From positions 102,548,991 to 102,612,990 of the forward strand of contig NC_080423.1 of NCBI RefSeq assembly GCF_029873635.1: a stretch of DNA of 64,000 bases, in the 5' to 3' direction. Positions within the stretch are counted from its first letter, which is position 1; every line of letters begins with the position of its first letter. The position numbers were made by a program, and so were the translations under genes. Of this stretch, positions 7,958-27,237 are shown in pieces. This DNA comes from Malania oleifera (Eukaryota; Streptophyta; Magnoliopsida; Santalales; Ximeniaceae). The notes below the pieces were generated by a model. That model was given only the letters and a program-made list of their open reading frames with translations, did not search any database and was not told where the DNA came from.

Positions 7958-9612
7958 TTTTTTTTTTTTTTTAATTTTAGAAAAGGTAATTTATTAAGAG
8001 GGAAGAAGCAAGCAAGAAGCTTGAAACTTCCAATAAGGCAAAAGAGAACAAAATGCAACCCTAAAAGTAGGGTAGAATCAACGAGAGTACTGAATCACAC
8101 CCCCCCCCCCCTCCTCCAAAGTCTGATATAGCAATCAAAAACTCCTCCTAATACAATAAGCTCAATTTTTTTATTAGTCCAACTCCAATGGAACAAATTA
8201 AAGAGGCATCTATGTGACATTGTTGCCGTGTTGGAGTAATTATCCTTGAAGATTCTTCTGTTCCTATCCTTTCATATTTCCCAACATATGGCCACTAGAA
8301 TTGATAATCTAAAACTTCTGAGGAACCCCTTTATTTTGGACAAATTTCATGCACGGAATAATGATATCAAATCTTTGGACGTGACCCATTTAAGATTTAA
8401 GCACTGCCACACTGTGATCCATATATGTTTGCTGAAGGGATAATGCAGAAAAAAAAAAAAATGATCTACTCCTTCAATATCATTCTTGCAAAAAGAGCAC
8501 ATTGGGTCAGCGTCCAGCCTCTTTTTTGTAAATTATCTGTTGTAAGGATTTTATTATTGATTGTCAACTAGCAGGATGCATTGATCTTTGAGGCAATGAA
8601 GGGGTTCCAAATCATTTTGAGAGGCACGCTTATGAGCATATGATACATTGTGAGAAAGGTATTTATAAAACTGGTGACTGTAAAAATTTGAGGGCTAGAA
8701 AGACCCCATAAGTCGAGATTAGACTCCTCTTTGTTAACATGTATTATATACTAAAGTAAAGAGCTCAAACAATTGTTTGACTTCCTTGCCTCTAACTTAT
8801 CTAACAAAAGATAAGTCCCAAAAGGAGTTATTGTTGGAGGTACTCACAATTTCTACCACTCTAACTTCCTTTCGACTAGCCAAGAGAAAAATATTTAAGA
8901 AAAAGTTATTGGAGGGTTGATTTAGTGGCCCACTTGTCCTACAAAAATTTTATTTTACCTCTGTCTCCAATTTTGATTGATACGCAATCCCAAATTGTAT
9001 CCTTCAATCTAACTACGTACTTCGACGAACCCCAACCAAAGCTACTCGAAGGCATTGTTGGAGACCACTTAACTTTATCATACCAGTATTTAACACAAAT
9101 CACTGATTTCCGAAGTGCCTTGGCTTCCCTACTAAATCTCCACAACCATTTTTCCATTATATCTTTAATCATGAGCTCCATATTTTTAATACCCAACCCA
9201 CCCTGGATTTAGGCTTTGAAACTAATTTCTAGTTCACGAGTGGGTATTTGAATTTTCCTCCTTCCTTTCCATAAAAAATTCCTTTGCACAGACAACTTTC
9301 TTTGGCGAGGGAAAAATAGACAAGAAATATGCAGTTTGATTGGAAAGAATTGAATTGATAAGAGTCAACCCACCTCCCATTAAGAGAAATTTTGATTTCT
9401 GTGTAGGCAACATCTGCTCCATTTTTAAATAATCGGATCCCATACATGAGAATAGCTTGCCTTGAGCCCCAGCGGGAGACCTAAGTATGAAGTAGGAAAT
9501 GAGGCTAATTTACAATTTAAGATTTCAGCGATCTCATCCACTTTGCTTGAAAGTCCAATCGAAAAAATAAGGTTCGTAGAGAGATCAACTTCTTTGTTTA
9601 AGTTATTCATTT
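7958..9612 (-). mobile_element. 5'-truncated LINE, RT and zinc-binding domain 3' end
   Basis: The minus strand reads KLASFPTSYLGLPLGLKASY near 9450-9530, then MGIKNMELMIKDIMEKWLWR at 9135-9196. Near 8480-8520 it reads DADPMCSFCKNDIEGVDH, and near 8410-8440 HYPFSKHIWITVW. These are the RT C-terminus and the zf-RVT zinc-binding domain of plant LINE ORF2, in the right order. The RT palm with its catalytic aspartates is missing, as is ORF1, so the insertion is 5'-truncated, as is common for LINEs. A poly-T run at 7958-7972 fits a poly(A) tail of a minus-strand copy. Several frameshifts are present. From 8397 rightwards it is repeated after the assembly gap. Confidence 0.85.
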
Positions 9613-10189
9613 AAGTTCGTCTTTCATTCAATATTTTCAAAATCTACAACTCATTATGCTCAATGATCATTAATTATAAAATCAAAATATGATATTCAAA
9701 TTGAGCAAGCTCCCCCCTAAACCAAAGCATTCAAATTTTCTAATAAGGTTTGGCGAAAAATCATTTCAACATAAAATATTTTCAATCATTCTCAACATTC
9801 GACAAAACTTTTGTTTATCAAAGTAAATAAAAAAAATCAAAATTCAAAAAAAAAAATTATTGTCATATTTTAAGTAGCAGAATATTTGCCCAAAATGTCA
9901 TATAAATAAATATATCAAACAATTTAAAGATGAAACTTTAAGTAAAAACAATTGGTTTGAATTTGTAAGAATTTTTTTAAAAAGCCCAAGTTTCATTTTT
10001 CAAAGGAATCCATTTTCAAATTTCACACTAATTCTCAAATTTAAGGATATTAAGCAAGTCATCTTGAATTTTTTTTCATTCAAGGAGGAGGAGTTTATCT
10101 CATCTTTCTCCTCAATAATCATGAAGCAAATGGCATTGAAAGTCTTTTTCTTGAACCTCCTATTTTCCTTCTTGAGATATAGGCGATCG

Positions 10190-24800: not shown

Positions 24801-27237
24801 AAAATAAATAAATAAATTTCCTCCTTATTGTCTTTTCATTTCCTTTCCCCAATTAAAATTTTTTATCCAAATGGACTCTTACCATATGCTTTGAGATGCC
24901 TGGATTTGAATAAAATGTACTATAAAATTATATTAAAAATTTTTCAAATCTATTCAAATTCAAATTTGAGATCCGAAATTCATGCTTCCAAACACTATCT
25001 TAGTGTTTTTATCCATTCTTTTAGTGCCATCTATAATACGGTTTGATTGTTGGTAGACAATTGTAGATCTGCATCACAACTAAATAATGTATCAATGGTT
25101 TTGAATTTTTGTTTCATGTCAGTAGGACCTAAAGCCATGGGGTCATTACTCAAATTCCACTATTGCGATCTAGTTTCTCCAAAAAGCTTTTGTATTTACA
25201 TCACTACACACACACTTGCATTGCACATAAATTTTTAGAAGAAAAATAGCATTGAGTTAAATATATATATATATATATATAATTTAATATTATTTAATTT
25301 TAATATAATATAAATTGAATTTTAAAAATGTTATGTTACCATCACATCACCTTCTAATCCAAAATAAACAATTGAACAAAATGCGCATTACATTTCACAT
25401 GATCTTATAAAGATTCTATGAACCAAACCACCAAACAACACCTAATCAAAGGTTGAATTGTATAAATTAAAAGTAATTAGTATGCATCTTGAATAATATT
25501 CTTAAACTAAATGCATGATTGTCAAATTGATGTTTTATTTTCACTAAAATGGGCTTAACTAGTATCCTCTCCAACTAAAAATTTTGAATGGATTGATCAT
25601 GGTTTTATTTAATATCTAAAGTGTTCATTCTTGTCTAAGTACATAAATTGCAGGATAAGATGCTATAAAATTTCATAAGGTGGATGAATTGTTTTATATT
25701 ATCTAATTGCTAATCATCCAGCATACTTTACGCATCTTTCAAAACAAAGTAATTAATTGCTATAAATAAAAACAATACTTCTACAAGATGTATTTTCTTG
25801 CATCAATCGATATGATTATACGTGTGTGTGAGCATATATCTTTTGTTCTAATAGATTTTATTTTATACAAGTTAAATGAGACAAGAATTTTCGTTATCAG
25901 ATCAAATTGATCTGGTATCTTAAATACTAACTAAATTTGGACCTAATTCAATCATAGGTTATATTATGACGAAGTAAATGATATTGAAGTGCCTTTTTAA
26001 AGGAAAAAAAAAAAAAAAATGGTGTGCACAGCATTCATCCTATAACTAGGAAGCATGTGTTCATGATTTCATAGTCTTATAATTTCTAAATGCATTGTCT
26101 TTCATCCTACCAAAACCTAGTGTTGTAATAAACTTGCTTGTTTAAGTGACCCTTACTAATGGATTTTCTATACTATAGATATCCTAAGGTCAAGATTAGT
26201 CCTACAACGACAACAATAGGGAAACAAATTGCCCCTGAAGTAGCAAGCTACTCTTCTCGAGGACCTAGCTCTCTTTCTCCTGCTGTGTTGAAGGTAATAA
26301 CATTATTTTTACATATTTTATTTTATTGATCATTTAACTAATGCAGGTATGTTGGTTAGCCTGACATTGCTGCACCGGGAGTTGAGATATTGGCTGCTTG
26401 GTCACCTTCTTCCTTTCCCTATACAAACTTTAACGTTCTATCTGGTACTTCTATGGCTTGTCCTCATATATCAGCCGTTGTTGCTCTTATTAAATCTATT
26501 TATCCCACATGGAGCCCTGCTGCCATCAAATCTGCACTTGTCACAACAGGTAGGAAATCAAAAAGAATTTATTGAAGTTACTTCTCTCTCGTGTAGTTGT
26601 GTGTGTTTAAAAAATATTTCTGTCTCTAATTTTGTCACACATACACGCACCCACTCGTACACATGTAGCTTCCATAAAGGATGTATATGGTCAACACATT
26701 ATTGCTGAAGGACTTCCAAGTAAGCGGGCCGATCCATTCGACTTTGGAGGTGGTGTTGTTAATCCTAATAAAGCCATAGATCCTGGTCTTGTGTTTGACA
26801 TGGAAACTTCTGACTATGTCAATTTTCTTTGCTCCATGGGCTATGATGAAAGTGATATCATTCAAATGACTGGGATGCTCACCCAATGCAATGGAACAAC
26901 TAATTTTCTTGAAAATCTCAATTTGCCCTCTATTTCCGTTCCGGAACTAAAGACTTGCTTAACCATATCAAGGACAGCTACAAATGTTGGTCCAGCAAAT
27001 TCTTGGTACATTTCATTTATCGAAGCACCCCCAGGAATAAGTTTGATAGTTGAACCGCCAATTTTGCTCTTCAACGGCGCTTTAAAGAAGATCAAGTTTA
27101 AGATCACATTATGCTCCCAACTAAGAGTTCAAGGACGATACTCATTTGGATATATATATTGGACTAATCCCAATCATTTGGTGAAAATGCCAACAATCGT
27201 TCGTCCAATAATAGAAGAATTTTATGCAGATGCATGA
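21814..27237 (+). CDS. Subtilisin-like serine protease (plant subtilase, S8), nine exons, 5' exon not found
   Basis: Exons read 21814-21911, 22030-22185, 22281-22392, 22875-23421, 24094-24191, 24320-24559, 26179-26293, 26360-26549 and 26669-27237. All have GT-AG borders and one continuous frame of about 707 residues ending in TGA. In order they give the end of the I9 propeptide ([13 protein letters not shown]), Asp in GILDTGIWPES, His in [10 protein letters not shown], Asn in CAAGNDGP, a PA domain in exon 6, Ser in [10 protein letters not shown], and a fibronectin III-like tail ([12 protein letters not shown]). All four catalytic residues are intact. Plant subtilases are usually ~740-780 residues, so the signal peptide and the first part of I9 (about one exon) are missing. 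The family is a secreted endopeptidase of the cell wall. The tail resembles SBT3-type members. The substrate is unknown. Confidence 0.92.
24560..26178 (+). other. Long intron 6 of the subtilase
   Basis: This 1.6 kb AT-rich intron starts gtagca and ends ctatag. Near 25258-25280 there is a short TA repeat. It contains no recognisable inserted element. In version A the matching segment, 15136-16776, carries many single-base differences and a GC-rich oddity near 16576-16640. Confidence 0.75.

Follow-up and report, generated by a model that had tools for sequence, protein, structure and literature searches.

Two gapped tandem subtilase copies in Malania oleifera are very probably one locus assembled twice

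In passages of the Vertebrate Genomes Project report, homotype false duplications are described at contig boundaries, where dovetailed sequence of roughly read length ends up in tandem, the two copies separated by a gap (PMC8081667). The gap between the copies serves as a criterion for such cases, and duplication errors give false gene gains, according to passages of a second report (PMC9516828). For the gap-closing program LR_Gapcloser, the part of its description considered here states that, when the fills of two reads, one from either boundary, together equal or exceed the length of the gap, the reads are joined through one hundred N (PMC6324547). Here, we compare with these described cases a pair of subtilase copies from Malania oleifera, a member of the Ximeniaceae (Santalales).

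The assembly history of this species can be followed in passages of two reports. Sequencing on the PacBio Sequel yielded 51.15 Gb with a mean read of 8,852 bp, and the 2019 assembly was made with SMARTdenovo followed by ARCS scaffolding (PMC6377399). The chromosome assembly began from this 2019 scaffold assembly, which went through two rounds of LR_Gapcloser and then Pilon polishing. In later steps, the scaffolds were broken into contigs, scaffolded with 3d-DNA and finally optimised by LR_Gapcloser and NextPolish; Redundans was applied to un-anchored sequences, and the published assembly has a scaffold N50 of about 112.6 Mb and 596 gaps (PMC10199050). The report on this assembly also names BioProject PRJNA472200. 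The sequence analysed here presumably derives from this LR_Gapcloser assembly.

We analysed a stretch of 64 kb, called the window in the following, which contains a single N run with one copy of the locus on either side. The features are as follows:

8405 to 17724, forward strand: block A, the end of the left contig and first copy of the locus, colinear with block B up to the N run
17725 to 17824, no strand: gap of exactly 100 N, the single N run of the window, in line with the 100-N rule in the LR_Gapcloser description (PMC6324547)
17825 to 27136, forward strand: block B, the start of the right contig and second copy of the locus, colinear with block A from the N run on

BLASTN matched 8406-16574 with 17826-26019 (96.3% identity) and 16623-17724 with 26024-27136 (87.1% identity), colinearly and in the same order. 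The match reaches the last base of block A before the N run and starts no more than one base from the first base of the right contig. Blocks A and B thus form an exact suffix-prefix dovetail that touches both edges of the N run; two contig ends carry one and the same sequence and are separated by a gap. The first-pass annotation had claimed that sequence and order are identical left and right of the gap, and the colinear BLASTN match bears this out. It had also placed the end of the left block and the beginning of the right block exactly at the N run, and here BLASTN and the edit-distance alignment described below agree with it. Its block limits hold overall, but the start at 8397 has to be moved to about 8405, where the match begins, and the end at 27134 to 27136. 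With 9.3 kb, the copies come close to the mean length of the PacBio reads, 8,852 bp (from the portion of PMC6377399 considered).

To describe the differences between the blocks, an edit-distance alignment was used in place of a MAFFT alignment, which had displaced bases where indels are dense and so inflated the number of mismatches. The edit-distance alignment was run with the first-pass coordinates, and the 8 extra bases at 8397-8404 were counted as edits. Of its 9523 columns, 9018 are identical; there are 97 mismatches and 339 indel events (163 + 176), 299 of which are one-base events. Change-point fitting of the difference events in 100-bp bins, with one to eight segments, gave in the five-segment fit rates of 83, 12.5, 0.5, 15 and 113 events/kb from left to right, with change points at A positions 10397, 12397, 14597 and 15797. 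The corresponding tiers measure approximately 2 kb, 2 kb, 2.2 kb (the core), 1.2 kb and 1.9 kb. By BIC, six segments, with a short last one added, were best among one to eight (-908.3); five segments gave -905.3 and one segment -461.4. The outer tiers comprise 1,993 bp at the head of the right contig and 1,928 bp at the tail of the left contig, and the main parts of the profile are located as follows:

15797 to 17724, forward strand: tail of the left contig, 1,928 bp long and rich in errors (about 113 events/kb compared with block B), with the C-terminal subtilase exons broken
17825 to 19817, forward strand: head of the right contig, 1,993 bp long and rich in errors (about 83 events/kb compared with block A); block B is the likely, not proved, noisy copy
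12351 to 14640, forward strand: near-identical core in block A coordinates, with a single one-base indel against block B

The self-comparison per kb, which had been proposed as a check in the first pass, thus places the lowest difference rate in the middle of the block and the highest next to the gap. An asymmetric error density around a near-identical middle had been claimed, and this shape is confirmed, in the form of steps and not of a smooth gradient. One-base indels had been said to be massed on both sides of the gap, and the 299 one-base events among 339, together with outer tiers at 83 and 113 events/kb, are in keeping with this. A GC-rich stretch of 44 bp (16575-16618), which lies inside the error-rich tail of block A and is found in block A only, is probably a read error burst.

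For comparison of the error type, three pairs of real repeats in the window served as controls. They showed 61 mismatches and 14 indel events (transition-to-transversion ratio 47:14), 45 mismatches and 21 indel events (29:16), and 41 mismatches and 4 indel events (28:13), respectively. Between blocks A and B, 97 mismatches stand against 339 indel events and the ratio is 16:81, so that this indel- and transversion-rich pair shows the opposite pattern. One-base indels lie beside an identical base in 187 of 299 cases, compared with a fraction of 0.539 expected for a random base, and the homopolymer bias is therefore mild. The A/B differences resemble long-read noise and not evolution. Substitution-dominated divergence of the kind seen in real repeats, as expected for a true tandem, was not found, although a duplication that is too young would escape this comparison.

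The gene shared by the two blocks encodes a subtilase. Window open reading frames carry Peptidase_S8 (PF00082) and fn3_6 (PF17766) according to Pfam, and for one of them (207 aa) the best solved relative is cucumisin. The spliced block B query matched P0001, 'subtilisin-like protease SBT3.9 [Malania oleifera]' (805 aa), along its entire length with 99% identity. Among the best 120 matches of this search, which scored only the 8000 candidates with most shared words, the next four were Malania proteins at 88, 87, 85 and 70%, and the remaining 115 of 120 were at 63% or less. In P0001 the domains PF05922 (Inhibitor I9), PF00082 and PF17766 all score above the Pfam cut-off; it has the I9, Peptidase_S8 and fn3-like C-terminal domains of a plant S8 subtilase, and the window carries its residues 98-805. 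The gene features, whose block B exon limits are tblastn borders and not splice sites, are as follows:

21812 to 27234, forward strand: intact SBT3.9-type subtilase exons of block B, P0001 residues 98-805, from tblastn with P0001, open reading frames and Pfam
21812-21913, 22014-22187, 22280-22393 and 22870-23421, forward strand: the first four of the tblastn exon matches in block B
24094-24192, 24318-24560, 26177-26548 and 26668-27234, forward strand: the last four of the tblastn exon matches in block B; the match at 26177-26548 spans an intron
12390 to 17721, forward strand: block A copy of the gene, with exons intact to 13998 and a frameshifted exon near 14692

Compared with the SBT3.9 of Malania oleifera (P0001), the block B gene, 99% alike, shows nothing unusual. 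Residues 1-97 of P0001 could not be matched convincingly to any part of the window. The first exons should therefore fall outside the window and, if the annotated protein is right, the intron ahead of the exon at 12390 should be longer than 12 kb. P0001 is listed with one member sequence on one contig; we did not count this single listing as evidence for a single copy, because the annotation of this protein was probably made on the very assembly analysed here. Three SBT3.9-named Malania proteins (P0002, P0003 and P0005; 88, 87 and 70% to the query) have the same record length as P0001, and the chromosome of P0001 may carry a real cluster of subtilases.

The coding frames identify the noisy copy at the right end. 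In block B the frame of the last exon is open at 26611-27234 and passes 27136 unbroken, and 26668-27234 is 100% identical to P0001 residues 617-805 (tblastn). Its block A counterpart is scattered over several frames at 27-42% identity; from 16783 on the block A gene is in fragments, and the contig end truncates it at residue 771 of 805. When the other 119 subtilases (P0002-P0120) were compared with the right tier, the best tblastn HSP was higher in block B than in block A for every one of them (119/119), with medians of 192 bits and 29.6 bits, respectively. The exon for residues 403-435, which falls in the intermediate tier, has an open frame in block B and a shifted one in block A. These data show that the right-end errors belong to block A, the contig ending there. 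This upholds the claim of a left block that loses quality towards its right end.

At the left end, protein searches yielded no such comparison. A 292-aa query of pieces from the left tier gave no match at E ≤ 0.001 among 278 candidates, and for an 89-aa frame no candidate was obtained. Pfam returned for this tier only sub-threshold zf-RVT (18.0 bits in block A and 17.2 bits in block B, cut-off 27.5), and the longest open stretches differ little (110 aa in block A, 94 aa in block B). The zf-RVT signal belongs to the following feature:

8350 to 9610, reverse strand: weak reverse-transcriptase (zf-RVT) remnant crossing the left border of block A, with 18.0 bits at 8350-8532

This remnant is probably a decayed LINE; the LINE label had been given in the first pass and is weak, with both scores below the Pfam cut-off and no homologue found by these searches.

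Because no homologous protein was found there, the call of the noisy copy at the left end rests on the error signature. For this purpose, a model that allows for the read strand was trained on the right tier, where block A is known to be the noisy copy. The best log-likelihood for the left tier was -462.1 with block B noisy and -484.5 with block A noisy. Block B was favoured, on either strand, in 4983 of 5000 bootstraps, a count that overstates the strength since this simpler strand-aware model was picked after the result of the first model was known; with the earlier, sparser model, which used run-length features, the bootstrap support for block B was 78%. In two control halves of the right tier, the model named the correct noisy copy both times, with the strand opposite to the training half. 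Two of three sub-bins of the left tier favour block B, and the third (9600-10396) is a near tie, 0.8 log units towards block A. Block B, the contig beginning there, is thus the likely noisy copy at the left end, at moderate strength and not as a proved assignment. The corresponding claim for the right block, of degradation towards its left end, is consequently favoured to this moderate degree by the error signature; protein homology lent it no support. Consensus quality differs between the copies at the right end, and at the left end by error signature only.

The A/B pair fits the known class of homotype false duplications and is almost certainly an artefact, not biology. With the cases described in the passages of PMC8081667 and PMC9516828, it shares the presence of the same locus twice, the dovetail at a contig boundary, a length close to that of a read, the gapped tandem arrangement and the unequal consensus quality. 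It differs in that both copies bear an error-rich tail of about 2 kb at the gap, which fits read-based filling on both sides. One subtilase locus has almost certainly been assembled twice: it stands in two copies because overlapping contig ends would have been set side by side at the gap and left unmerged. This interpretation, put forward in the first pass, agrees with the geometry, with the type and polarity of the noise (moderately so at the left end) and with the assembly history.

Most economically, the course of events may be reconstructed as follows. The original contigs would have overlapped by about 5.4 kb (A 10397-15797) before gap closing, and their thinly covered ends would correspond to the tiers with 12.5 and 15 events/kb. 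The gap closer, which we infer to have been LR_Gapcloser, would then have extended each contig end by about 2 kb with one raw long read; the error-rich stretches flanking the gap, each roughly 2 kb in length and with 83-113 events/kb, fit raw reads. One hundred N would have been written because the fills attained the nominal gap length; the gap at 17725-17824, of exactly one hundred N, has the form described for a type-2 fill in the passage on the 100-N rule, in which such a run separates fills from opposite boundaries (PMC6324547). Later polishing would have left the raw tails unrepaired, and redundancy removal would have reached only un-anchored sequences; the overlap would have stayed unmerged.

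The same false duplication might also stem from the thin contig ends of the assembler alone, without raw-read gap closing. The tiers with 12.5 and 15 events/kb do look thinly covered, and part of the Vertebrate Genomes Project report (PMC8081667) describes, for assemblers of the overlap-layout-consensus type, branch overlaps where contigs end. The exact 100 N, which is the LR_Gapcloser mark for two fills attaining the gap length (PMC6324547, description seen in passages), speaks against this course, although other assembly tools are possible sources of such a run and the passages considered hold no statement on gap size for them. We regard this variant, which still amounts to one locus assembled twice, as unlikely but deserving of some weight.

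Far less probable is a true tandem duplication of about 9.3 kb, with a core too recent to have diverged and an assembly that broke at the junction with poor consensus on both sides. The core differs at a single base, as in a fresh duplicate, and the SBT3.9 relatives at 88, 87 and 70% that share the record length of P0001 indicate that real duplicates may exist there. The breakpoints of a real duplication may fall anywhere. Against this reading stand two coincidences that it requires: the unit would have to end at the gap edges on either side, and the noise would have to climb towards the gap in opposite copies. Two alleles set in tandem, a heterotype false duplication, would likewise place one copy on each side of a gap (according to passages of PMC8081667). 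However, the heterozygosity, given as about 0.06% (PMC6377399) or 0.12% (PMC10199050) in the parts of these reports considered, is far too low for outer tiers of 83 and 113 events/kb, and the core holds one difference. The divergence is not haplotype-like: the changes are dominated by indels and transversions, as in noise and unlike the real repeats of the window. Alleles were therefore rejected as scarcely conceivable.

If one locus was assembled twice, only one SBT3.9-type subtilase would be present here in the real genome, and a false gene gain is removed: counts of subtilases, tandem duplicates or pseudogenes could otherwise include one gene too many, which looks as if it were decaying. 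Dovetail geometry, stepped error rate, transition-to-transversion ratio and frame polarity around a gap together make a read-free test that needs the sequence only, and it can be applied in the same way to each of the 596 gaps given for the published Malania assembly in the passages of its report (PMC10199050).

Several other repeats were observed in the window. Two direct repeats of 542 bp (1144-1685 and 5600-6141) are 86% identical, and between them lie open reading frames on the reverse strand at 3378-3962 and 4298-4768 with SH3_retrovirus, gag_pre-integrs and Pol_BBD domains. Repeats and reading frames probably constitute an LTR retrotransposon, which we take to be of the Copia type. An inverted repeat pair (30854-31290 and 39100-39533) is about 73% identical over 445 columns. 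Direct repeats that resemble one another (73-90% identity) are clustered at 52278-57133, and the stretch 54072-54120 in this region is self-complementary. The reverse-strand open reading frame at 59310-59879, with RT_RNaseH and RVT_3 domains, is a retroelement remnant.
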